Source of the DNA: Lachnospiraceae bacterium
Lineage (GTDB): Bacteria; Bacillota; Clostridia; Lachnospirales; Lachnospiraceae
Direction: 5' to 3'
NCBI GenBank assembly: GCA_030524705.1
Contig: JAUNGD010000032.1
Span: 1-38,931 of the forward strand
DNA: 38,931 bases
Every line of letters begins with the position of its first letter. Position 1 is the stretch's first letter. The translations under genes and the position numbers were made by a program. Under the pieces are notes generated by a model. That model saw only the letters and a program-made list of their open reading frames with translations. It ran no database searches and was not told where the DNA came from. Below, piece by piece: positions 668 to 28,677 of the stretch.

Positions 668-3196
668 CTATCCCTTTATGTACGGTACAATCACATCGTA
701 AAATTTTTTCGTCCACTCAGCATGGAAATTCGCCATCTGAAGCCAGTCCGTCTCGTTTTCAATACTGACATGGTTCAGCTGAATACTGACCTTTGACGAT
801 TTGATGTCATCACCACGATTCCACTGGAGAGCTGCTCCCAGCTTTGATTCAATTTCAGGTTTATGCGCATACAGGCTGTCAAATGCGTCTTTGTTTTCCT
901 GCTTGTTTCCTCTGCCAAATACGACCTCCGCCCGCGCCGCATCATAGTTTGCCACACAGCTCAGGCAAAAGCCGCCGATGCCAAAGAATCCGCTGATCCA
1001 GTTATCCCTGCCGGGTTTTACATTTGAGAAAGGACCGTCTGCACCATGAGCCTTCTGAATAACCGGCAGTGCATAAGCCCAATACTTTCTTCTTAATTCA
1101 TATCGGCTTCCCGGCTCATCTGTATTAACCTCGCTGTCATCACGGAGGTAAAATACCAGATCCGTCAAATCTTCATCGTAGAGTTTGAACAAACGGCTCA
1201 GAACGGATAGCTTGCTCTGAGTATTTGTATTCGTCCAGACATAGATTCCATCACCTATTTCCAGACACTTTGTGAAAGCATCCGGATCAGTACTAAAATG
1301 CAGAGCGATATTTTCCTCCCCGGACATGGCCAGTTTCGTGATGATCGCCTTATCTTCCGCATATAAAATCTGAATGACCTTCTGGAACATTTCCACCCAG
1401 CTTGTCACCGGCTGCTCCGTATTTTTAAACGCAAACTTTGCAATCAGGCGGCCAGTTAATTCGTCTTCATCCTCAAGTGTACAGGTATCCATCTGCTTTT
1501 CTGCCGGCCTATAGTCTGTTGCCGGCGCCGTCCATATCCTCAATGCTCTGTCCATAAGGTACTGGCTGCGTTCTTCCAGTTCTGCCCGCGTCCACTTATC
1601 CTTCCTGGCGATCCATGTGTTCATACGGATGCCGCTATCCTCAAATCCGTTCTGCATGGTTTTCTTTTCGATGAAGGAGCTATTTCCATATTTCGAGTTA
1701 TAGGCCGTCAGCGTCAGGTTGGCGATCCTGTGCAGCCATAATTCGTGAATCTGCTCATAGTCGCTGCCCAGCTCCTTCTGCCATATTGGAGTTAAATGCT
1801 GCGGCATAATATGCTCAATTGAATAAGTCCCGTCATCACAGTGACGGTACACATCCTTGTCCTCTGATGTGCCAAAATTTTCAAGCCGTTCAAGGATGTA
1901 GATTTTGTTCTTGCTGTTCATCAGATAAACAGGCTTCTCCACGAATGCCTGTGAGAATTCCTGATCTCCAGGAAAACGGGCCCGTTCCTTCTTCGAAAGG
2001 AGAGTATATTTAAACTTATCAACATAATTGTCCTCTTTTCCGTCGTACCGGACGATTTCGCGATGCAGCAGCAGAAAGATTTTGTTCAGAGCATTGGTTG
2101 GAAGATCACACATGCTTCTGCGAAACAGATAATTTTCAGTGGTCAGGAATATCTCCGTAACCTGCCCCACTGCCAGTCTGCCTTCATTATACAGACGCAG
2201 CACCTCAAGAAAAAATGGCCTCGTTACAGTTGTCTCTAATCTGTTCAGCCGGAGAATGCACGCGTCCAACGCAGCATTTCCGGTGTTACCGTCGAGAAGA
2301 ATCTGATAGCGTCTGGCATAGGCCAGCATATCTGTCAGAAGAGGCTCCGTTTTAATCTTCCCAAATTCAACATAATCCTTAAAATTGGTATAAATTTTCT
2401 TCTGCTGTGGAATTGCCTGCTGCTTCACGCTCAGATAATCTCTGATGAACGCACTGGCATCGTATTTCGTGCAGACTTCGATCTTGTTCCAGTATTTCTC
2501 ATAGTATTCTTCCTGTTCCCTGGAAGACAGCCCCATCAGGATAAAGTTCCTGATCTTATCTCCTTCGCTCAGATCAAGACCTGTGGAGTTCAGGCTTTCA
2601 AAAATCAGCTGCGGATTGTCTTCCTTATCCAGCCGGATATTAATGATCTCCAGACAGCAAATGGCATCGTAGAGCTGATCAATGGTGATTTCCTGTTTTT
2701 GGATCCTGTCATAAAAATAGTCATAATTGACAGTCAGGTTCGATTCACGAATATGATCTGCTGGGTCAGAGAACAGCTTTCCAAAAGCCTTCTGGTCATT
2801 TTTAACTGGCTTTAGTTTGATCCGGGTATCCTCCGGTTTCCATTTGTCAACAAGGTATTCCTCAAAAATCCGCTGTTTCAGATTGGAGGCCTCCGGCACA
2901 ACAATTCCTTTATCGATCAGATTATGCATTGCAAGAAACAGCAGCGACACTGTGGTCAAACGCTGCTGGCCGTCAATAATCAGGAACTCCTCATTGCGGC
3001 CATCTGGATCGTACACCGAAACAATGCTCCCGAAAAAATGGCTTTTCCGATTACCCTTGATGATTTTTACAAGGTCATCGTAAAGCTGCTTGCAGTTCTC
3101 TGTCTTCCAGTCATAATTTCTCTGATAAACCGGAATGACAAAGCGTTTATCAGAACCCTCCATGTATTTTACAAATTTGCATTCTGTACCCTTCAT
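668..3196 (-). CDS. DUF262/DUF1524 GmrSD-like restriction protein (type IV family)
   Basis: This 842-aa protein has the fused architecture of GmrSD-type modification-dependent restriction enzymes. The N-terminal ParB/Srx-like DUF262 domain carries IPVYQRNYDW (residues 21-30) and IDGQQRLTT (74-82), the nucleotide-binding motif of the family. An HNH-like DUF1524 domain follows, with IEHIMPQHL near residue 460 and a conserved RIANLTL stretch. The last 150 residues resemble the DUF4268 family. Known relatives cut phage DNA carrying modified cytosines and use NTPs; whether this one does is inference. It stands alone among metabolic genes, outside the rlmD-linked island. The protein is full length with no visible break. 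Confidence 0.85.
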   Translation of the reverse strand: MKGTECKFVKYMEGSDKRFVIPVYQRNYDWKTENCKQLYDDLVKIIKGNRKSHFFGSIVSVYDPDGRNEEFLIIDGQQRLTTVSLLFLAMHNLIDKGIVVPEASNLKQRIFEEYLVDKWKPEDTRIKLKPVKNDQKAFGKLFSDPADHIRESNLTVNYDYFYDRIQKQEITIDQLYDAICCLEIINIRLDKEDNPQLIFESLNSTGLDLSEGDKIRNFILMGLSSREQEEYYEKYWNKIEVCTKYDASAFIRDYLSVKQQAIPQQKKIYTNFKDYVEFGKIKTEPLLTDMLAYARRYQILLDGNTGNAALDACILRLNRLETTVTRPFFLEVLRLYNEGRLAVGQVTEIFLTTENYLFRRSMCDLPTNALNKIFLLLHREIVRYDGKEDNYVDKFKYTLLSKKERARFPGDQEFSQAFVEKPVYLMNSKNKIYILERLENFGTSEDKDVYRHCDDGTYSIEHIMPQHLTPIWQKELGSDYEQIHELWLHRIANLTLTAYNSKYGNSSFIEKKTMQNGFEDSGIRMNTWIARKDKWTRAELEERSQYLMDRALRIWTAPATDYRPAEKQMDTCTLEDEDELTGRLIAKFAFKNTEQPVTSWVEMFQKVIQILYAEDKAIITKLAMSGEENIALHFSTDPDAFTKCLEIGDGIYVWTNTNTQSKLSVLSRLFKLYDEDLTDLVFYLRDDSEVNTDEPGSRYELRRKYWAYALPVIQKAHGADGPFSNVKPGRDNWISGFFGIGGFCLSCVANYDAARAEVVFGRGNKQENKDAFDSLYAHKPEIESKLGAALQWNRGDDIKSSKVSIQLNHVSIENETDWLQMANFHAEWTKKFYDVIVPYIKG

Positions 3197-17693: not shown

Positions 17694-18254
17694 TTATTTT
17701 TTATCAAAAAGATCTAAACGAAACTCATTGTTTAGAACTTTCACTTCTATTTCAGCTCCCCTTCTAACAGTAAGTGTGTCTCTACTTATAACAGTCTTCT
17801 CTACGGCATTGTTATCTTCATTCACAAGCTTGCACTCATACATCCTATAATGCATCAGTTCAAGAATAATATTCACACTGAAATAATTATGCCTTATACA
17901 CAAAAATCCAAAAACAAAGAAGAAAATCAGGAACTTGACTACCTCATCCCATTGTGTGAAATCAAATGCAAAAAGGGGAAGAATATACGAAAGCAAAAAC
18001 TCTGCTGTGATTGTTTTGCTTTCCTTAGCCTCTTCAATTCGATATGTGTATTTTTCATCATCAGTCACATAAAACTTTACGAACAATGCAATCAATGAAA
18101 ACAACGCGCAAGCCAATATCACTGTTATGCTGATGATCTCTGTGTACTTATTCTCCCCACCATCTATCAAGCTTTTCACATCAATAAATAGTATGGTCAG
18201 CCATAACGGTGCAAAGGAAAGAAAATACATGCTAAAAGATATAATTAAAGACAT
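17694..18254 (-). CDS. kwaA: Probable Kiwa membrane subunit KwaA
   Basis: A 186-aa membrane protein with four predicted transmembrane helices (about residues 5-27, 38-62, 84-98 and 104-122) followed by a cytoplasmic tail of about 60 residues. Size and topology match KwaA, the membrane sensor of the Kiwa anti-phage system. I infer identity mainly from pairing: it begins 9 bp after a DUF4868-like gene, the KwaB family. The order here is kwaB then kwaA in transcription. GGGAG six bases upstream supports the start. It could be another membrane partner of DUF4868 proteins. Confidence 0.7.
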   Translation of the reverse strand: MSLIISFSMYFLSFAPLWLTILFIDVKSLIDGGENKYTEIISITVILACALFSLIALFVKFYVTDDEKYTYRIEEAKESKTITAEFLLSYILPLFAFDFTQWDEVVKFLIFFFVFGFLCIRHNYFSVNIILELMHYRMYECKLVNEDNNAVEKTVISRDTLTVRRGAEIEVKVLNNEFRLDLFDKK

Positions 18255-18263
18255 ATTCGCTCC

Positions 18264-19202
18264 CTAACTAACCCAATCCTTTGAACCGTCTACTTCAACC
18301 GGTACCTCTTCCAGAATATCCCACATAGCTTTCCCACACAGAAGCTTCACCAGATTCTCCGCATCGTTTTTTTGACTGGTATTGAATTGTTTCTTATCTT
18401 CTGTCAATGGAATATTGAAAGCCTTCGCCGCTTTTTCTCTATTTTTCTTCTTAGAGAGAAGCTCTAACTTCGATTTACTAAACGCCGCAAACCTTCTTGG
18501 ATTCTGGCCCGATGTCGCCGTATCACGGAACATTTCCGAATCCGAAATGATATTCATTTCTTCAATCTCTTCTACTGCTTCATTGCATTTAAGTTTATAG
18601 GCTCTCTCCATGTTAAACAAAGTCTCGCCTGACATATCCAGGAAATATACAGTCTTATCAAAAATGACCACATTCATCGTAGTACGCAGGTTCAACACCT
18701 TGTCAGGGATTTCATAAAACTTACCCTTATCATGAAGAAATCTGTTTTTCAGTGTAGTTATAGGAATATTCATAGAAATCAGCTTTACCCGATGCTCGTC
18801 TCCACCGCATTTCATGGTTCCACAGAGAATATATGCTTGCGCTTTTACTTCAAGTGGATTAGCTTCGGTATCCGACTCAGAAACACTTTGCAGAAGTGTA
18901 TCCAGATCTATCTGAATATCAGCATTATCCTCGCTTATTCTATAAATAGATGTTCCATTGCATGTTCCGTCATATTCTCTTACATCAACATATTTCAATA
19001 ACCTATTTTTAGTTGTTCCGCTGTAGCCCGCACTGATCTCCTCGATTAAAGATACCATCCTGCCGGCTGGCTCAATCTCAATCCGCCTACAATTAAATGA
19101 TGTTCCATGCCTTTTTGAATGTGTAAAACCAAGCAAATGAGCATGCCACTCCTTGCATTCAGGTAATCTTTCAAATATTTCCTTTATCAATTTCAATGAC
19201 AT
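18264..19202 (-). CDS. kwaB: Probable Kiwa effector KwaB (DUF4868)
   Basis: A 312-aa soluble protein. Its C-terminal half shows the DUF4868 pattern: LNLRTTMNVVIFDKTVYFLD, the phenylalanine-bearing METLFNMERAYK-like segment, and an end helix LVKLLCGKAMWDILEEVPVE. DUF4868 is the KwaB family, reported to bind DNA and act with membrane KwaA against phages. The length matches (about 310-320 aa). It starts 23 bp after hsdR, so restriction and Kiwa are transcribed together. No catalytic motif is evident. The family call is from pattern memory and needs a profile search. Confidence 0.72.
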   Translation of the reverse strand: MSLKLIKEIFERLPECKEWHAHLLGFTHSKRHGTSFNCRRIEIEPAGRMVSLIEEISAGYSGTTKNRLLKYVDVREYDGTCNGTSIYRISEDNADIQIDLDTLLQSVSESDTEANPLEVKAQAYILCGTMKCGGDEHRVKLISMNIPITTLKNRFLHDKGKFYEIPDKVLNLRTTMNVVIFDKTVYFLDMSGETLFNMERAYKLKCNEAVEEIEEMNIISDSEMFRDTATSGQNPRRFAAFSKSKLELLSKKKNREKAAKAFNIPLTEDKKQFNTSQKNDAENLVKLLCGKAMWDILEEVPVEVDGSKDWVS

Positions 19203-19225: not shown

Positions 19226-22200
19226 TTATATCAGTCCTCTGAACTTCTCAAAGTAAGCCATCAGTCTTCTTATCAGAGCCTTTTTTCTTTTATCTCTTCC
19301 TGCACCGCCAAAACGGGATACCGGAGGCATGATCTTATCGATATCTGTTCCAATGGTCTTTAATTCATCATCCCTGAAGGATCTCTCAATATAAGCCCTG
19401 GTCTCTTCCGGCTTAAGCTTCTCGGTCTCAATAAGAATTGTGAGCTCTTTTTCTTTCATTTCTACTACATAGTCATGCCAAACATCCATGACATCATCAA
19501 TGTCGTTCACGCCTGCTATAAAGGACTCTATCAGAGCCTTCTTGCTGCGAAGCTCAGGACTGGCATCAACAGCCTTCCTGATCGTAACAAGCAGTTCTTT
19601 ATCCTCTCCGTGGCTGTCATGGTATTTCTTTACCAGCATAAGGATGTAGTCTATGTTAATCTCAATCTGCTTGATGAGCTCTATCTCAAAGACGATATCA
19701 TCGGTGATATCCGTGCTCTCGCCATTTTCACGCTTACGCCTCCATTCATCACGCAGATCCTGATATTTACCCAGATAATCCTGAAGGTCCCTCTCGCTGA
19801 TGATTTCCTTACCGGCAAAATCATCAAAAGAAAGCAGCAGGTTCCGCATCTTCAGGATTGCGCCAAAGAGCGCAATAAACTCCTTTTGATTCTGCTCTCC
19901 GACAATCTGCGGCATATCCACCGGGAACTTCGTGGTCAGATCTTCAATCATATCCACATAACCCGGCATCGGCTTTCCATCCACGGACTCGTAGCCGTAA
20001 TAATAGTCCTTAAAACTCTGCATCAGGACGATGCCGCCCGCATTCTTATCTCCGAACAAAGATATAGCAGCATCCACACGCTTCTGCAGATTACGGAAGC
20101 ATACAATGTTTCCGAAGGTCTTGATGCTGTTTAGGATACGGTTGGTACGGCTGAATGCCTGAATCAAGCCATGCATCTTCAGATTCTTATCAACCCAAAG
20201 CGTATTCAGCGTGGTGGCATCAAAACCTGTCAGGAACATATTGACGACAATCAACAGGTCAAGTTCCTTATTCTTCATACGGAGCGATACATCCTTGTAG
20301 TAATTTTGAAATTTATCACTTGATGTATCATAATTCGTATGGAACATCAGATTATAATCCTGAATGGCCGCCTCCAGAAAATCCCTGGCATTCTGATCAA
20401 GAGCAGATGTATCTTCTGAATTCTCTTCTTCCAGTATGCCATCAGCCTCTTCCTCATTTGCAGCATAGCTGTAGATAACGGCAATCTTCAGATCCTTAGT
20501 CGGATCTTTCTTGATTATCTTACGGAATTCATCATAGTAGAGCTTTGCCATGGGCACAGAAGCAACGGCAAAGATAGAGTTGAAACCACTGAGTCTCTGC
20601 TTCTTTTTTATCTCCTCGACCTTGCCCCGATCTGCCGATGCGACCTCGGCAATGTTGGTCAGAGAGTTATAAACATAGGTCTTATCGCCTCTGTAGGTCT
20701 TCTGGTCAAAGTGATCGAGAATATAATTCGCTACCAGTGATATTCTCTCCGGTGCCTCAAACGCTTTCTTGCGGTCAATGTCCCAGACTTCCTCGTCATC
20801 GATATCCGCATCGGTATCCATTGTCTTAATGTAATCCACACGGAAAGGAAGCACGTTTTTGTCATTGATGGCATCCACGATCGTATAAGTGTGAAGCTGA
20901 TCGCCGAAGGTCTGTTCCGTCGTGGCAAACTGAGGATTTTTTACACTGCTACCTGCATTCGCCGGGAATATAGGAGTGCCCGTAAAGCCAAACATGTAGT
21001 ATTTCTTGAAATACCTGACAATTGCGGCATGCATATCTCCGAACTGGCTGCGGTGACATTCGTCAAATATGATAACAATCTGCTTGTTATATACATCATG
21101 CTCTTTGTTCTTCTTTATGAAAGTGGAGAGCTTCTGGATTGTGGTAATAATAATCTTTGACTTGTTGTCTGCCAGCTGCCTCTGCAGAATTGCCGTGGAT
21201 GTATTACTGTTTGCTGCCCCCTTCTCAAACCTGTCATATTCCTTCATGGTCTGATAATCCAGATCTTTTCTATCCACCACGAAGAGAACCTTATCGATGA
21301 AACTCAGTGTGGATGCAATACGCGCTGTCTTGAAGGATGTGAGCGTCTTCCCTGAACCCGTAGTATGCCAGATGTATCCGCCACCTGCGATATCCCCATA
21401 CTTCTTGTAATTATGAGCTATCTCGATGCGGTTGATGATCCTCTCGGTTGCCGTTATCTGATAAGGTCTCATGACCATCAGCATATTTTCAGATGTGAAA
21501 ACACAATACTTTGTCAGAATATTAAGCAGCGCATGCTTTGCAAAGAAGGTTTTCGTAAAATCAATCAGATCCGGGATAACCTGATTATTTGCGTCCGCCC
21601 AGAAGGATGTAAACTCGAAGCTGTTACTGGTTTTCTCCTTCTTGATCTTGCCGGAGGTGGCATCCTTTATCGCATTATGGCGGGTGCTGTTAGAATAGTA
21701 TTTTGTATTCGTTCCATTACTGATAACAAAAATCTGGACAAACTCAAACAGACCGCTTCCCGCCCAGAAAGAATCCCTCTGGTAGCGGTCGATCTGATTA
21801 AAGGCCTCTCTGATAGGTACGCCCCTGCGCTTAAGCTCAATATGAACCAAGGGCAGACCGTTGACAAGGACGGTGACATCATAACGGTTATCGCATTTTG
21901 CCCCTTCTTCCTTGCCGATAACATACTGGTTGATGACCTGAAGCCGATTGTTGTGGACGTTGGTCTTATCAATCAATGTGATATTCTTTGACAAGCCATC
22001 ATCCCTCTTTAAGACCTGGACATAATCCTCCTGAATCTTCCGGGTTTTCTCCACGATATGTTCATTCGGATTAGCGATGACGTCCTTAAAGAACCGCTCC
22101 CATTCTTTATCGCTGAATTTATAATCATTCAGTTCTTCCAGCTGCGCACGGATATTGGCTATCAGATCCGTTTCTGTATGAATGGGCAGATAGGTGTACC

Positions 22201-22339
22201 CCTGCTCACAGAGCATCTTGATAAATTCCTGCTCCAGGGCAGCCTCGCTCTGGTACTGATCTGAGCGGCGTTTTACCGGCTCGTATTCGGTAACCACTGT
22301 GTTTTCATTTGTCTGAGCGACGATGTTAAAATATGGCAT
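19226..22339 (-). CDS. hsdR: Type I restriction endonuclease subunit R
   Basis: 1037 aa, a normal length. The N-terminal nuclease domain has the PD-(D/E)xK core with Asp154 in RYDVTVLVNG and Glu168/Lys170 in VHIELKRRG. The helicase motor follows: IWHTTGSGKT (Walker A), VIIFDECHRSQFG (DEAH-type box) and YMFGFTGTPIF. The RecA2 motif QAFSRTNR is present, and a helical C-terminus contacts the methylase. It translocates DNA with ATP and cuts unmodified DNA as part of R2M2S1. GGAGG precedes the ATG. The frame is intact, so the system should be functional. Confidence 0.95.
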   Translation of the reverse strand: MPYFNIVAQTNENTVVTEYEPVKRRSDQYQSEAALEQEFIKMLCEQGYTYLPIHTETDLIANIRAQLEELNDYKFSDKEWERFFKDVIANPNEHIVEKTRKIQEDYVQVLKRDDGLSKNITLIDKTNVHNNRLQVINQYVIGKEEGAKCDNRYDVTVLVNGLPLVHIELKRRGVPIREAFNQIDRYQRDSFWAGSGLFEFVQIFVISNGTNTKYYSNSTRHNAIKDATSGKIKKEKTSNSFEFTSFWADANNQVIPDLIDFTKTFFAKHALLNILTKYCVFTSENMLMVMRPYQITATERIINRIEIAHNYKKYGDIAGGGYIWHTTGSGKTLTSFKTARIASTLSFIDKVLFVVDRKDLDYQTMKEYDRFEKGAANSNTSTAILQRQLADNKSKIIITTIQKLSTFIKKNKEHDVYNKQIVIIFDECHRSQFGDMHAAIVRYFKKYYMFGFTGTPIFPANAGSSVKNPQFATTEQTFGDQLHTYTIVDAINDKNVLPFRVDYIKTMDTDADIDDEEVWDIDRKKAFEAPERISLVANYILDHFDQKTYRGDKTYVYNSLTNIAEVASADRGKVEEIKKKQRLSGFNSIFAVASVPMAKLYYDEFRKIIKKDPTKDLKIAVIYSYAANEEEADGILEEENSEDTSALDQNARDFLEAAIQDYNLMFHTNYDTSSDKFQNYYKDVSLRMKNKELDLLIVVNMFLTGFDATTLNTLWVDKNLKMHGLIQAFSRTNRILNSIKTFGNIVCFRNLQKRVDAAISLFGDKNAGGIVLMQSFKDYYYGYESVDGKPMPGYVDMIEDLTTKFPVDMPQIVGEQNQKEFIALFGAILKMRNLLLSFDDFAGKEIISERDLQDYLGKYQDLRDEWRRKRENGESTDITDDIVFEIELIKQIEINIDYILMLVKKYHDSHGEDKELLVTIRKAVDASPELRSKKALIESFIAGVNDIDDVMDVWHDYVVEMKEKELTILIETEKLKPEETRAYIERSFRDDELKTIGTDIDKIMPPVSRFGGAGRDKRKKALIRRLMAYFEKFRGLI

Positions 22340-22356: not shown

Positions 22357-24198
22357 CTATTTTTCGTTAAATGACAACAGCATGTCTCTGTAATATTCGT
22401 ATTGCTTTTTTCTTGCTTCTATCTCTGCCGGTATTCCACTCTCAAAATCATTGCAAAGTGAATCAAACCTATCAAGGATACTGACCATTTCTTTTTGCCG
22501 ATTTATGCTTGGAAGGAGGAAATTAATTTTCATAATCTCATCTCCTCGGACATGCGGCACACCTGCTCCTCTTTTCATCTCATGCAGCTTCTCCTGCTGA
22601 GACTTGAGGACATGGTATAAATAACGGATTTTGCAATTATCATTCGTCTCAAGCATAAAACCATCGGAGACAAAGATATCCTCATTCCAGAACGACACAA
22701 ATCCAGCATTCGCTCCACTTCGCGATACCACAATCACCTCGCCAGAATGATTACTTCTATCCGCATAGTATGCAGGCTCAGTCCCACCAAGAATAACCGG
22801 GATGTCTCCAGCCTTCATACTCTTCTGTGTCACATACTCTCCTCTAAGCATTTTTGCTACTTCATTCATAGTTACAGGCGCATATCCAAACACATACTGC
22901 AAAAGCTTAATTACGCTCTGTCTGTTTGTCTGTCTGTCTGGCTGTCTGTATGTAAGGATGATGCTCCCTGTCTCAGCGAATGTCAAGAGCAAATCCCTAT
23001 AATATTCATATTGTTTCTGACGGGCCTCAATCTCGGCTGGAAGACCAATGTTTAAGTCAGAACAAATTGTCTCGAAATTATCTAATACGTTTACAATTTT
23101 TTTCTGTAATCCTAGATTCGGAACCGGAATCTTGTAATCAAGGATTTTAGAAAACTCAAGTGAGTCAACTGTTCCACCCTGCTTTTTTGTCTTTACCCTT
23201 ATATCATCCCCATACGCCTGCATGGCATGTGCAACATACTTGGACAAAATTCCTTCTTTAACAACCAGAATTTTTATATCCTGATTTATCGTAGTCTTAA
23301 AAGGGACATAAGCAATCGGAAATGTATGTTTCAAAATTCCAGACCGTGTAACTATTGCTATACACCCCTCTGGATATAATGTCATTCCAGCCTCTGACAA
23401 AGCTTTTTCGGTAATATGATCTTCTGTTTCCTCAAGTATCGGTTTCTTCATGTCTTTAGATGATATCCAAGGTATTGTACCATCTAACCAATAGCTCTTT
23501 TCTCCCATTGAAGGAGTTTTTCCGCCGGACCATTTTCCAAGATCTCCTATAGCCACTATTTCAATGTCAGGCTTTAAGTCATCCAGTATTTTTGTTCTGT
23601 AAAATTCATACTGTTTTCTGCGAGCTGAAAGCTCCGCTGAAAGTAACGTGAAATTGTCCAGCACGCGGACAATTTCGCGTTGTACCTCCAGAGGAGGTAC
23701 AGGGATTTTCACCTTCTCCATCAGCTTCTTTGAAACATTAAATCTTGTAACACCGCTTGCTGTTTTCCCAATTTGATAACGTAATTCGCCAGATCTAAAC
23801 AAATGCTTGGAAAAATCCGGAAGCATAATAGCCGGATCATCAAATCTAAAAACAAAGCAGAAACTATTAAGGTATAATTTTTCATCTGTCTTTCTCGTAA
23901 CAACTGACGATATTCCACATTCGTCGGGTGTTTCCGACGAACCGGTAAAAATCACATCTGCATACTCAAGCGTTCTCTGCTTTTCACCTTCAGCTATTTT
24001 CACCCTATCTTCAGCATCCAAATCCAAAGCCGGATTAGAATACACATTTCTGTAAGTTATAAATTTTGCATTACCATCCTTGAAGTCGTCCTTGGATTTT
24101 CCAGTCAAGCCGCCGTAAAATTTTCCTAACTCGCCCAGCGTGTAATACCGAACCCCGTCTGGGCAGTACTCCATAATAAGGTCATTGATTTTACTCAT
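22357..24198 (-). CDS. hsdS: Type I specificity subunit S with three target-recognition segments
   Basis: 613 aa from the ATG at 24198, chosen because AAGGAGG lies eight bases upstream. Usual HsdS proteins have about 400 aa and two target-recognition domains. Here three recognition-type segments end in near-identical central repeats: LSARRKQYEFYRTKILD (about residue 195), IEARQKQYEYYRD (about 395) and IEARKKQYEYYRD (C-terminus). Each is preceded by a conserved block ending in a VLDNF- or ILDRF-like helix. A TCTG-type repeat tract interrupts the gene at codons 416-427, just before the third segment. In both other frames a TAA follows immediately, giving proteins of 427 or 431 aa. The subunit sets the DNA sequence recognised by methylation and cutting. 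Confidence 0.93.
   Translation of the reverse strand: MSKINDLIMEYCPDGVRYYTLGELGKFYGGLTGKSKDDFKDGNAKFITYRNVYSNPALDLDAEDRVKIAEGEKQRTLEYADVIFTGSSETPDECGISSVVTRKTDEKLYLNSFCFVFRFDDPAIMLPDFSKHLFRSGELRYQIGKTASGVTRFNVSKKLMEKVKIPVPPLEVQREIVRVLDNFTLLSAELSARRKQYEFYRTKILDDLKPDIEIVAIGDLGKWSGGKTPSMGEKSYWLDGTIPWISSKDMKKPILEETEDHITEKALSEAGMTLYPEGCIAIVTRSGILKHTFPIAYVPFKTTINQDIKILVVKEGILSKYVAHAMQAYGDDIRVKTKKQGGTVDSLEFSKILDYKIPVPNLGLQKKIVNVLDNFETICSDLNIGLPAEIEARQKQYEYYRDLLLTFAETGSIILTYRQPDRQTNRQSVIKLLQYVFGYAPVTMNEVAKMLRGEYVTQKSMKAGDIPVILGGTEPAYYADRSNHSGEVIVVSRSGANAGFVSFWNEDIFVSDGFMLETNDNCKIRYLYHVLKSQQEKLHEMKRGAGVPHVRGDEIMKINFLLPSINRQKEMVSILDRFDSLCNDFESGIPAEIEARKKQYEYYRDMLLSFNEK
22917..22952. repeat. Tetranucleotide TCTG tract inside hsdS, candidate phase-variation switch
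   Basis: Nine 4-bp units: TCTG, TCTG, TTTG, TCTG, TCTG, TCTG, GCTG, TCTG, TATG; six are perfect. On the coding strand they read as R-Q/D-R-Q/T-N-R-Q. A change by one unit shifts the frame into GCGTAA or CGTAATTAA directly after the tract. Tetranucleotide tracts in restriction genes are a known route of slipped-strand phase variation. Confidence 0.8.
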
Positions 24199-24520
24199 CC
24201 TTTTGACCTCCTTCAAGCACGGCCTTCATAGTTCTACCGTCCTTCGACTTCCAGACAATAAGACCATTTGTACTTGCACCAGTAACAAAATTAGCAGCTG
24301 TCGAGGCACTCTTAAACTGGACATTTTTTGTGACAACACACTCCACAACAACTCCGTTCCCTCGCGCCCTCTCTATAGATTTGGCACCACGGAATTTTTC
24401 GCTATGAGCAATTGAATCAGATACTCTGCTACCCTTAAGAACAATAAAGAGTTTTTTCTCTTTGTCATACTCAAGAATGGCATCCACATTCGATTTGTCC
24501 CTCTTTATATAAAATTTCAT
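24191..24520 (-). CDS. DUF4357 protein in the type I restriction operon
   Basis: A 109-aa protein whose C-terminal half carries the DUF4357 pattern (VQFKSASTAANFVTGASTNG followed by a Trp and DGRTMKAVLE). This domain is often found next to or fused to restriction-modification proteins; its function is not known. The first half is a short beta-rich region (MKFYIKRDKSNVDAILEYD). It overlaps hsdM by 4 bp and hsdS by 8 bp, so its translation is tightly coupled to both. Confidence 0.8.
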   Translation of the reverse strand: MKFYIKRDKSNVDAILEYDKEKKLFIVLKGSRVSDSIAHSEKFRGAKSIERARGNGVVVECVVTKNVQFKSASTAANFVTGASTNGLIVWKSKDGRTMKAVLEGGQKDE

Positions 24521-26088
24521 GATTCCACCTCGATTTCTGCGATGATCTTATCTATCTCATCACGTAATACCTGCTCATGGGCGACAATTTCTTTAATCTC
24601 CGCATTTAGTTTAACGATGTCAATCTTTTCTCTGGTGTCTTTCTGCTCTACATAGGTGCTTACTGACAGGTTGTAATTCTGTTCTTTAACTTCATCATAG
24701 GAAACCAGCCTGCATAGATACTCCTTATCCTCACGCTCTGTAAAGGCATCAACAATGTGGTCGATATTCTCCGGAGTCAGCTTATTATTATTCGTAACCT
24801 TAATGCACTCGTTAGATGCATCAATGAACAGAACCTTGTTATCTGTCTTCCCCTTCTTCATAACCATGATACAGGTTGCAATCGAGGTGCCAAAGAACAG
24901 ATTGCTTGGAAGCTGAATGATGCAATCAACATAGTTGTTATCAATCAGGTATTTCCTGATTTTCTGCTCAGTGCCCCCACGGTACATGATACCGGGGAAG
25001 CAGACAATGGCTGCCGTTCCGTTCGGTGCCAGCCACGAAAGGGAATGCATGATGAACGCCAGGTCTGCCTTACTCTTCGGAGCCAGCACGCCTGCCGGTG
25101 CAAAACGAGGATCATTAATCAGCAACGGATTTTCATCTCCTGCCCACTTGATGGAATACGGCGGATTGGAAACGATCAGTTCAAACGGCTCGTCATCCCA
25201 GTGCTGCGGATTGGTAAGCGTATCCTCACACTCAATATCAAACTTGTCGAATCCGATATCATGCAGGAACATATTTATACGGCATAGGTTATAGGTAGTG
25301 ATGTTTATCTCCTGTCCGAAGAAGCCGATCTCGACAGCATCCTTGCCCAGCACTTTCTCAGCCTTAAGAAGCAGAGAACCTGAACCGCAGGCCGGATCGT
25401 ATACCTTATTTATCTTCTTTTTTCCGACCGTTCCAAGCCTTGTAAGCAGCTCCGAAACATCCGCAGGCGTAAAGAATTCGCCGCCGGACTTACCGGCATT
25501 GGAGGCATACATGGTCATGAGATACTCGTAGGCATCCCCGAATGCATCAATATCGTGATTCTTGACGGAGCCAAGATTCATTGCCGCAACGCCATCAAGG
25601 AGCTTCGCCAGACGCTCATTTCTCTTTGCCACGGTGCTACCGAGCTTATTGCTGTTTACATCAAAGTCATCAAACAGCCCTGCAAAATCAGCCTCCGACT
25701 GGCTTCCTTTTGCCGAGTTTTCTATATTGTTAAAAACACGCTCCAGAGTTTCATTCAGATTGTCATCGTTTGCGGCCTTAGCTCTGACATTACAGAAAAG
25801 CTCGCTCGGCAGAATAAAGAACCCCTTCTCTGTAACCAGTCCTTCTCTCGCCTCCTCTGCCTCCGCATCAGACATATGGGCATAACTGAAATCAGGATTG
25901 CCCGCATCGATCTCGCCCTGGTCAATATAGGCAGCCAAGTTTTCCGAGATGTACCTGTAGAACATCGTACCAAGTACATAGTTCTTGAAATCCCATCCGT
26001 CAACTGCTCCGCGCAGTTCATCCGCAATCGCCCAAATGGCGCGATGCACTTCTTCTCTTTCTTTTTCTTTCTTGCTATCTACAGCCAT
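24517..26088 (-). CDS. hsdM: Type I DNA adenine methyltransferase subunit M
   Basis: 523 aa. The N-terminal HsdM helical domain (WDFKNYVLGTMFYRYISENL) is followed by the methylase core. The S-adenosylmethionine motif is VYDPACGSGSLLLKAE and the catalytic motif IV is LIVSNPPYSIKW (NPPY), typical of N6-adenine methylases. With two copies and one HsdS it forms the methylase that protects host DNA. GGAGG eight bases before the ATG lies at the 3' end of the HTH gene. The frame is intact. Confidence 0.95.
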   Translation of the reverse strand: MAVDSKKEKEREEVHRAIWAIADELRGAVDGWDFKNYVLGTMFYRYISENLAAYIDQGEIDAGNPDFSYAHMSDAEAEEAREGLVTEKGFFILPSELFCNVRAKAANDDNLNETLERVFNNIENSAKGSQSEADFAGLFDDFDVNSNKLGSTVAKRNERLAKLLDGVAAMNLGSVKNHDIDAFGDAYEYLMTMYASNAGKSGGEFFTPADVSELLTRLGTVGKKKINKVYDPACGSGSLLLKAEKVLGKDAVEIGFFGQEINITTYNLCRINMFLHDIGFDKFDIECEDTLTNPQHWDDEPFELIVSNPPYSIKWAGDENPLLINDPRFAPAGVLAPKSKADLAFIMHSLSWLAPNGTAAIVCFPGIMYRGGTEQKIRKYLIDNNYVDCIIQLPSNLFFGTSIATCIMVMKKGKTDNKVLFIDASNECIKVTNNNKLTPENIDHIVDAFTEREDKEYLCRLVSYDEVKEQNYNLSVSTYVEQKDTREKIDIVKLNAEIKEIVAHEQVLRDEIDKIIAEIEVES

Positions 26089-26304: not shown

Positions 26305-28677
26305 TTAGACCTCCATGAATATTTCCTTATCTGCGTGTTTATCCATCAATTCCCTGTAGTATGCCTTTATCCTGCAAAAGCCTTTCCAGACTCCTTCATT
26401 TTCGGTTTTCAAGACTTCTATCAGTGGCTGATAGTTATCAGGTGTTTTTTCAATCACGCTGAAATCCGCTTTATACTCATGTCCGAAGCAGACAAGCTGC
26501 TTTTTATCATCCCGGACAAAATCGCTCCCCTGATTCTTCTCTTCAAAATCCGGAAGGTTCTCTACGTCCCTTCGGAAGATTCTTCTGGCCACTATGGTTT
26601 TCTTCTTTGCGTTCCCATCGTAATAATTTTCCCCAAATATCCCTGCTGTCATAAAGTTAGGATAATTCAAGGCATTCTCAAACACCGCAAAACACAGTAA
26701 TCCGTCAACATCGGCCTGCTTCAGTATCATGGAGAATACGACATTGGACGGTTCCGCGATAGCGGGCTTAAGCGGCTGCCATTCCGCTCCGGCCTTTACC
26801 ATATACTGTGATACCAGATCCGTATCCACCACCTGATAATCAATCTTATGATATCCGTTCTTCAGGAAGGATATAAATGCGGCTTCATCCGTCTTGCCTT
26901 TGAAAACCTCATTTAAAAGAGGAATGAAATATGTCAGTTCCACTTTCTCCATAGAGAACTCGCAGAACATATCAAAGGCGCTTCCATCCTCGAATGCGCC
27001 GAGCGGCGTAGACCATAGCTGTTTTCCGAAAGCAATGGTCTTTACCGGATCCTCAACCCTGTTATATTCCGCAAACAGATATTCCTGAAATCCGGGATCG
27101 ATGTATAAAAACTTATAATCCGCTTCATACATCATGCAGGCGGTCGCACAGGCATCATGTATGAAGTTCTCTTTTGTCATGATTTTCCGGTTATTCAGCT
27201 TCTCGACCGTCGTAAGCTTATTGAAATATTCTTCAAAATCAGCGTAACCGAATTCATGTATGCGGTCTCTGTATGTGATGGCACAAAATTCCCGGAATAC
27301 CATCGTAAATTCCTCAGAATCACGTGCACTGTGATATATCCGGTCGTAAGCTTCCTTATCCCTGTCATGCACCCTGACCATCGTGTCATATGCCTCATGA
27401 TAGAACAGATGCTTCTGACCGTGGAAAGTCTCCACAAGCGGAAACTTCATGATGACGAAGGTCAGCATCATCGGATTGGTCCGGAAGATGTTATGACGCT
27501 GAATGAACTCCTCATCCAGATACCTGTTTATATTATCCCTGAGCTCTGCGTCCTCCGGTTCCGGAAGCAGCCTGTTGATCAATTCATCCGGCTGGTTTCC
27601 TTCAAACGCTTTCAGATACAGCCGCTTAAACCGGTTCTTTAGTCCACGCACCATGTCGCACTCCCGAGACGCGATGACATACTGATTGTGCGGATATTTG
27701 TCCATAAGATCAAAAAGCTGTCTCTGAAAGGCTATGACATCGGACTGGTCAATTTCATCCGCCGCATCCAGCAGAATCTGACATTTCCCAGAATTCATCA
27801 GATCCCTGACATTTTCTTCCGTAAAGGTATTATCCAGCAAAGACACCGCCTTCAGGATATAGTCCTTAAAAAGATCGTTCTCCTCACTGAAATTCCTAAG
27901 TTCTACCAGTATCGGCACAATGCCGGTCTTATCATGTTCCTTTATCGATTCATAAAACAGATGCTGCAGCATCATCGATTTTCCCATACCGCCGATGGCG
28001 ATAAGAGATACATGCCTGTGGTAGCCTGCAATCTTCTCAAGCGTCGCATCCTCAATAATCACTTCAGCAGATCTGTTCCTAGCTGACCTTCTTCCACCAC
28101 TGCTGCTGCCCATCCTGCTGCTAAGCTTATTGCAGACATATATTTCATCCAGCGGGCGCTCATCATCTTCCTCTGTAAACGGCAAAGTCACCTTACCGTA
28201 TTTATCGACTGCACGTTCCTGATACTTTGCGAAAACCTTTATATGTGCGTCCGGCTTGTAATAATCCTTTGCTTCTTCTTTTGTCTCTCCGTTGCCGCAG
28301 GCTATAGCATAGAGCACCTTCCCTAAGGCAAACGCCAGCAGCTTTTTGTCCGGTGCGGTTCCCTCTTTAAGCGAAATCCCGAACCTGATCATGAGCTGTG
28401 TAAGAGTGTTATCATTCAGGTCTTTAGACAAGCTGTCTATAAATCCTGTTTCATTAAACTCATTCGCCAGTACTCCCCATAAATTCCCATCCGGCGTCCT
28501 TGTTCCATCAAGCCATTTTCCATAGGTGCTGTTGGAAGTGGGCAGCATACCCCAGTGTTCCTCCGGCAATGCTGCTCTCATGATATATTCCGGTATCTTT
28601 TCCTTTGACTTATGACCAACAATACCTCCAGCAGTCCTACCCATATAAAAATTGCTGAAAAACTCGTTATATTTCAA
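26305..28677 (-). CDS. NACHT/STAND NTPase, candidate anti-phage sensor
   Basis: 790 aa. The N-terminal 150 residues form a helical domain (DSTYGKWLDG-like pattern at residues 48-60) seen in a family of clostridial NACHT proteins. The NACHT NTPase has Walker A IAIGGMGKSMM (226-236) and Walker B QILLDAADEID (300-310), with the extra acidic residue typical of NACHT. A helical winged region follows (NPMMLTFVIMKFP, FLYIDPGFQEYLFAEYNR). The last 200 residues lack visible repeats. Bacterial NACHT proteins are known anti-phage sensors; activity here is inference. The start is TTG with a GAGG site seven bases upstream. It is the first large gene of the leftward defence operon. Confidence 0.85.
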   Translation of the reverse strand: MKYNEFFSNFYMGRTAGGIVGHKSKEKIPEYIMRAALPEEHWGMLPTSNSTYGKWLDGTRTPDGNLWGVLANEFNETGFIDSLSKDLNDNTLTQLMIRFGISLKEGTAPDKKLLAFALGKVLYAIACGNGETKEEAKDYYKPDAHIKVFAKYQERAVDKYGKVTLPFTEEDDERPLDEIYVCNKLSSRMGSSSGGRRSARNRSAEVIIEDATLEKIAGYHRHVSLIAIGGMGKSMMLQHLFYESIKEHDKTGIVPILVELRNFSEENDLFKDYILKAVSLLDNTFTEENVRDLMNSGKCQILLDAADEIDQSDVIAFQRQLFDLMDKYPHNQYVIASRECDMVRGLKNRFKRLYLKAFEGNQPDELINRLLPEPEDAELRDNINRYLDEEFIQRHNIFRTNPMMLTFVIMKFPLVETFHGQKHLFYHEAYDTMVRVHDRDKEAYDRIYHSARDSEEFTMVFREFCAITYRDRIHEFGYADFEEYFNKLTTVEKLNNRKIMTKENFIHDACATACMMYEADYKFLYIDPGFQEYLFAEYNRVEDPVKTIAFGKQLWSTPLGAFEDGSAFDMFCEFSMEKVELTYFIPLLNEVFKGKTDEAAFISFLKNGYHKIDYQVVDTDLVSQYMVKAGAEWQPLKPAIAEPSNVVFSMILKQADVDGLLCFAVFENALNYPNFMTAGIFGENYYDGNAKKKTIVARRIFRRDVENLPDFEEKNQGSDFVRDDKKQLVCFGHEYKADFSVIEKTPDNYQPLIEVLKTENEGVWKGFCRIKAYYRELMDKHADKEIFMEV

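Follow-up and report, generated by a model that had tools for sequence, protein, structure and literature searches.

A probable two-/three-TRD phase switch in a family of type I HsdS proteins, with a decayed repeat in a Lachnospiraceae copy

Introduction

The NgoAV system of Neisseria gonorrhoeae is described as changing its specificity by means of a poly-G tract, which fuses or separates a further recognition segment of HsdS and shifts the motif from GCAN8TGC to GCAN7STCA (PMC9577141). A second precedent comes from Helicobacter pylori J99, where JHP1422 (Hpy99XV), an HsdS with three recognition domains (TRDs), is reported to methylate two motifs, while constructs that carry two of the three TRDs methylate one motif each (PMC3936762). 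HsdS proteins with three TRDs are also noted elsewhere (PMC3077401, PMC3510504), and PMC12429846 cites Atack et al. 2020 for them. Repeats are reported in 7.9% of hsdS genes, a REBASE figure of Atack et al. 2020 that is repeated in PMC7394358.

Here we describe an hsdS gene from a Lachnospiraceae bacterium that has three TRDs and a tandem repeat between the second and the third, together with its relatives in other genomes. A tract at this place is not described in the literature passages that we surveyed. As Atack et al. 2020 (FASEB J) examined repeats in type I genes and is cited for three-TRD HsdS, the layout of three TRDs with a tract may already be in print there.

Results

The hsdS gene and its surroundings

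The window, by which we mean the whole stretch of 38,931 nucleotides that was analysed (contig JAUNGD010000032.1), carries a type I restriction-modification operon on its minus strand, in the order hsdM, a DUF4357 gene, hsdS and hsdR. The hsdM gene lies at 24517-26088 (PF02384, E 1.8e-116; PF12161), the DUF4357 gene between hsdM and hsdS at 24191-24520 (PF14267, E 6.8e-14), and hsdR at 19226-22339 (PF12008, PF04313 and others), with its start, judged by the coordinates, 17 nt past the hsdS stop codon.

The hsdS gene itself (22357-24198, minus strand) translates from an ATG into the 613-aa protein that the original prediction had given. Its three recognition blocks were likewise confirmed, by a domain search that could have returned only two. 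PF01420 (Methylase_S, E 1.2e-53 for the protein) matches three stretches within the single open frame: segment 1, TRD1 with its conserved region CR1, at 23614-24162 (E 5.6e-13); segment 2, TRD2-CR2, at 23023-23568 (E 1.1e-19); and segment 3, TRD3-CR3, at 22414-22878 (E 1.9e-18), all on the minus strand. The ARxKQYExYR motifs start at 23625, 23025 and 22416 on the same strand, and the three CRs are mutually 67-73% identical at the DNA level. Methylase_S domains with conserved regions, next to hsdM and hsdR, are what is expected of an HsdS. The layout departs from the usual two TRDs; a change of one repeat unit would leave two. Three TRDs in one open frame are the arrangement of Hpy99XV. By sequence, the best match among solved structures is the EcoR124II specificity protein (7bst, E 2.2e-69).

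Other genes of the window also resemble defence genes. A Kiwa-like pair (17694-19202, minus strand) follows directly behind hsdR on the same strand, 23 nt after it, and consists of a KwaB-like gene (18264-19202; PF16162, E 5.8e-11) and a KwaA-like gene (17694-18254; PADLOC, E 1.5e-16). A GmrSD-type restriction protein with a C-terminal DUF4268 is encoded at 668-3196 (minus strand). Together, the type I, Kiwa-like and GmrSD-type genes look like a defence island. Upstream of hsdM, a gene at 26305-28677 (minus strand) encodes a 790-aa protein with a weak NACHT match of 26.4 bits, slightly under the Pfam cut-off of 26.7 bits; it had no PADLOC match.

The repeat and the junction of the window

Between segments 2 and 3 lies a degenerate CAGA tract (TCTG on the plus strand) at 22917-22953, minus strand, for which Tandem Repeats Finder gives 9.2 copies at 84% match with no indels. 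The tract exceeds chance: 28 of 33 positions match at period 4, and of 200 simulated first-order Markov sequences as long as the window 0 equalled this, the best of them reaching 23. The nine TCTG-like units that had been read here are present as an array, but not as a clean one, since no perfect run exceeds 14 nt (3.5 units, 22927-22940). The frame arithmetic of the original prediction was correct on recomputation, with 427 aa after the loss of one unit and 431 aa after the gain of one.

Directly behind the tract is a conserved junction at 22886-22913, minus strand, with the junction-pattern match at 22886-22911. Within it, TAATTAA at 22907-22913 holds stop codons in both other frames and is at the same time part of the codons for VIKLLQYVFG. 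The repeat of the window is 37 nt long and impure; the long and pure non-triplet repeats of phase-variable genes are seen in its relatives. Because of this imperfection, with no perfect run beyond 14 nt, the window copy is probably frozen: the tract has decayed by substitutions while in the fused frame, and the HsdS is expected to be effectively locked in its three-TRD form.

The repeat site in relatives

A genome scan with the HsdS protein as query gave 26 loci, and 54 of 194 related genomes had some match. Many relatives carry a perfect GACA tract at the equivalent site (in the loci with a measured pure tract, 70-73 nt behind the beginning of the CR2 motif), and the conserved junction behind it encodes an IKLLQYVFG-like peptide in the frame of the third segment. 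So that loci would not be picked by their repeat, we searched for the junction only. It matched in 9 of 299 genomes at family level and, with a slightly looser pattern, in 5 of 47 at genus level and 6 of 391 at class level, with overlap between the three; a reversed control pattern had no match among the results listed for these searches.

The junction-anchored set comes to 17 distinct genome loci, the window included. In all 17 an array of period 4, 5 or 7 stands directly upstream of the junction, and in 16 it is perfect over at least 28 nt (in two of these, to either side of a stretch of N), the window being the exception. Across the 25 complete three-segment loci, units of 4, 5 or 7 nt occupy one site behind the second conserved region. 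Seven repeat units are found there (GACA, AGCA, GAAC, AATGC, AGCTC, CAGCAAG and ACGAGCA, a count that also takes in two loci whose tract is gapped), and none has a length divisible by three. These sequences are most simply read as those of a site at which frame instability is maintained and where the tract was rebuilt on several occasions.

Tract-bearing three-segment hsdS genes were also seen on contigs from a viral collection (L128, L161, L226, L233, L234 and L273). Prophages or other mobile DNA may carry the gene; alternatively, what is seen on these contigs may be host flanks. Searches for more copies gave 1,161 plasmid records and 10 phage records, all below 60% identity.

Some loci differ in the place or the host gene of the tract. 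Of 30 loci listed for a six-unit GACA pattern (L063-L092), 9 show the hsdS motif next to the tract and 21 lack it; in several of the latter (e.g. L066, L084, L085 and L089) the tract stands at the start of other long ORFs, possibly other contingency genes. In L052 a GACA tract follows a CR1-type region and has a single TRD to either side, and L053 has a one-unit remnant there; these are an NgoAV-like two-segment version of the same element. In a Muribaculaceae hsdS (L029), nine G behind a CR1-type region (~2045-2053) separate halves in different frames, likely an NgoAV-like switch in Bacteroidota.

Reading frames of the third segment

Among the 25 complete three-segment loci, segment 3 is fused in 7 (the window included) and out of frame in 18 (9 + 9). 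Cultured relatives with long tracts show both states, for example Blautia sp. An81 (L012), whose tract of 58 nt leaves segment 3 out of frame, and Bacterium 1XD42-76 (L024), where it measures 90 nt and segment 3 is fused. Comparison with equal thirds gives a chi-square p of 0.85, which is descriptive only, since the loci are related; the same non-independence holds for all counts across loci. No alignment of at least 300 nt at 88% identity or more was reported among the 25.

The census leaves out L052 and L053, in which the tract or remnant follows a CR of the CR1 class, so that a single TRD stands to either side, L016 (third segment out of frame, no tract found) and L045 (segment 3 not open to the tract). 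Also left out are L036/L222 and L037/L224, with a run of N in the tract; L074, L079, L213, L214 (copy L090), L219, L220 and L228, which are cut at the tract; and L115, which is part of the contig of L273. In L009, L017, L018, L019, L039, L046 and L108 the locus ends in the tract and segment 3 is absent from the contig. Some census loci (L067, L075 and L086) were found through the GACA pattern, which is frame-neutral and by which none of the 17 junction-anchored loci was found.

Copies in different frames are accompanied by stop codons in the off frames. In all 33 junction loci (L052 retained) both off frames run into a stop no more than 8 codons past the tract, and in 31 of them no more than 6 codons past it, a distance at which 14.6% of 3,918 control positions inside the TRD3 coding sequence have both stops. 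A single stretch, TAATTAA or TGATTAA, supplies the stops in many loci and is shared with the codons of the conserved peptide. Because the junction is homologous across loci, this is a matter of conservation and not of 33 independent events.

An all-against-all comparison of 50 hsdS loci found no tract-length difference between copies of one locus; everything it matched was either a duplicate at 100% identity or a partial match at 88-95%, and duplicates between collections were 100% identical. We considered contig ends inside the tract (L009, L017, L018, L019, L039 and L046) as a sign of length variation and dropped the idea, since a tract longer than k is enough to break an assembly. Tract runs of 76 and 54 nt at contig ends would fit breaks at k of 77 and 55.

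Conservation of the third segment

The frame of segment 3 is open from the junction through CR3 in 18 of 18 out-of-frame census loci, an open frame having been a condition of the tally; L045, a further out-of-frame locus, fails it and is decayed, with a segment 3 that is no longer open to the tract. Segment 3 is under purifying selection, out-of-frame copies included: pairwise dN/dS in TRD3 is 0.04-0.22 for pairs with finite dS (many dS values are saturated) and 0.09-0.22 for the four finite pairs in which both copies are out of frame.

The conserved regions fall into classes. Many relatives have TAEL-type repeats in CR1. In CR2, an I stands two places before the LPAE-type motif in 25 of 26 cases, the exception being L052 with its CR1-type region. 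At the same position of CR3 it is found in 0 of 33 (another residue in 27, pattern unmatched in 6). The C-terminal CR of 11 plain two-TRD proteins is mostly CR3-like, with the I in 2. Tandem duplication of a TRD was not seen, and because CR2 and CR3 belong to different classes, the three-segment layout is not a fresh tandem duplication.

Discussion

In our judgement the window HsdS probably belongs to a phase-variable family that toggles between two-TRD and three-TRD forms, and its own tract has decayed, probably leaving it frozen in the fused state. The near-random split of frames, the non-triplet repeats at one site and the off-frame stops make a two-/three-segment toggle well supported for the family. 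The toggle first proposed for the window gene is supported in its relatives, where seven non-triplet units, near-equal frames, off-frame stops and an open segment 3 come together, and is doubtful for the window copy, whose tract is interrupted.

Building on the anatomy, the frame states across genomes and the open, conserved third segment, we infer slippage, the proteins made and a change of specificity as follows. The family layout would be TRD1-CR1-TRD2-CR2, then a non-triplet tandem repeat, then TRD3-CR3. Slipped-strand mispairing would change the number of units and so set the reading frame of segment 3. In one phase out of three, segment 3 would be in frame and a three-TRD HsdS would result; in the other two, a stop just behind the tract would leave an ordinary two-TRD HsdS. 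Whatever the frame, a four-base unit read in threes encodes one cyclic peptide (DRQT for GACA), so the linker itself hardly changes. The two-TRD form would methylate one bipartite site, and in the three-TRD form TRD3 might pair with another half, adding or replacing a site as in Hpy99XV. By analogy, the fused phase most likely adds or alters a motif, because NgoAV and JHP1422 supply the two halves of such a mechanism.

A broader proposal, a little more likely to be wrong than right, is that these genes form an old class of HsdS, widespread in Clostridia, whose slippage tract inserts or drops a complete third recognition module and so switches the enzyme between one methylation motif and two, or between different ones. 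The tract would have been repeatedly rebuilt from unrelated 4-, 5- and 7-mers, with the conserved junction ensuring clean stops in both off phases.

Several other readings have to be weighed. It is unlikely that the tract of the window still switches often enough to matter. Its 37 nt at 84% match are there, one unit more or less gives 431 or 427 aa, and relatives with perfect tracts occupy all three phases; against this, slippage declines with short or interrupted tracts, and the longest perfect run of 14 nt compares with perfect arrays of at least 28 nt in the other 16 junction-anchored loci. Slightly less likely still is that an out-of-frame segment 3 has a start codon of its own and is made as a separate half-HsdS, pairing in trans. 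Half HsdS subunits are reported to dimerise (PMC3874165; PMC3936762), segment 3 is conserved when out of frame too, and an ATG, GTG or TTG is near its beginning in 32 of 33 loci. These start codons, however, share no conserved position, and in 5 of 33 loci one of them has a Shine-Dalgarno-like stretch ahead of it. Furthermore, most of them come after IKL.QYVFG, and the open frame reaches back to the tract; a separate gene would have no use for this.

The tract could also act mainly on HsdR, as ribosomes in the fused phase end just before hsdR and might be coupled to it, while in the other phases they stop ~600 nt earlier. The 17 nt between the two genes of the window fit this, as does an hsdR close behind TRD3 in L013 and L128. 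Yet L010, L011 and L015 have the tract and the junction, but the first long frame that opens with an ATG behind their TRD3 does not, by eye, resemble hsdR, and the conservation of a whole TRD-CR unit would be left unexplained; we regard this as very unlikely. Least probable, to the point of being hardly credible, is a silent reservoir or leftover for the exchange of TRDs by recombination, with its frame irrelevant. Movement of TRDs and the gain of a third by recombination at repeats are documented (PMC3077401), and L045 is decayed. The CRs of the window, though, are only 67-73% identical in DNA, TRD3 is under purifying selection, and a reservoir leaves unexplained why one site should hold a non-triplet tract in seven units. 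That segment 3 serves mainly for recombination between CRs was judged unlikely.

If the motifs of the fused and out-of-frame forms differ, as the proposed two-/three-TRD toggle would have it, single cells of gut Clostridia could switch methylation without a recombinase, which would bear on phage defence, DNA uptake and gene regulation. To our knowledge, the use of a third TRD has so far been studied in one H. pylori enzyme only. The phase variants in genome collections are natural two- and three-TRD forms for such studies.

Comparison with known systems

EcoR124I/II (type IC) resembles the family in that EcoR124II is the best solved-structure match and TAEL-type repeats are found in the CR1 of many relatives. 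EcoR124I and EcoR124II have two TRDs and a repeat that is a multiple of three, which changes spacing and not frame. Tetra-amino-acid repeats of type IC hsdS are mentioned in PMC10030836.

Hpy99XV likewise combines three TRDs and their CRs in one HsdS, and shows that such a protein works (PMC3936762). It differs in that its TRD2 and TRD3 are identical, and a slippage tract is not mentioned in the passages of that report on which we draw; the present family shows no tandem TRD duplication, and its CR2 and CR3 belong to different classes.

NgoAV shares with the family a repeat inside hsdS that decides on the fusion of a further recognition segment, and both of its forms are described as active, with different motifs (PMC9577141). 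In NgoAV, however, the poly-G lies behind the first segment and the choice is between one segment, in a truncated form of 208 aa, and two (PMC9577141), whereas here a 4-, 5- or 7-base repeat behind the second segment decides between two and three. The tract of the window is thus not between the first and second segments; that NgoAV-like place is taken by the tract behind the CR1-type region of L052, and by the remnant in L053. The precedents exist separately: tract-driven switching between a half and a full HsdS in NgoAV, and a three-TRD HsdS with two motifs in Hpy99XV.
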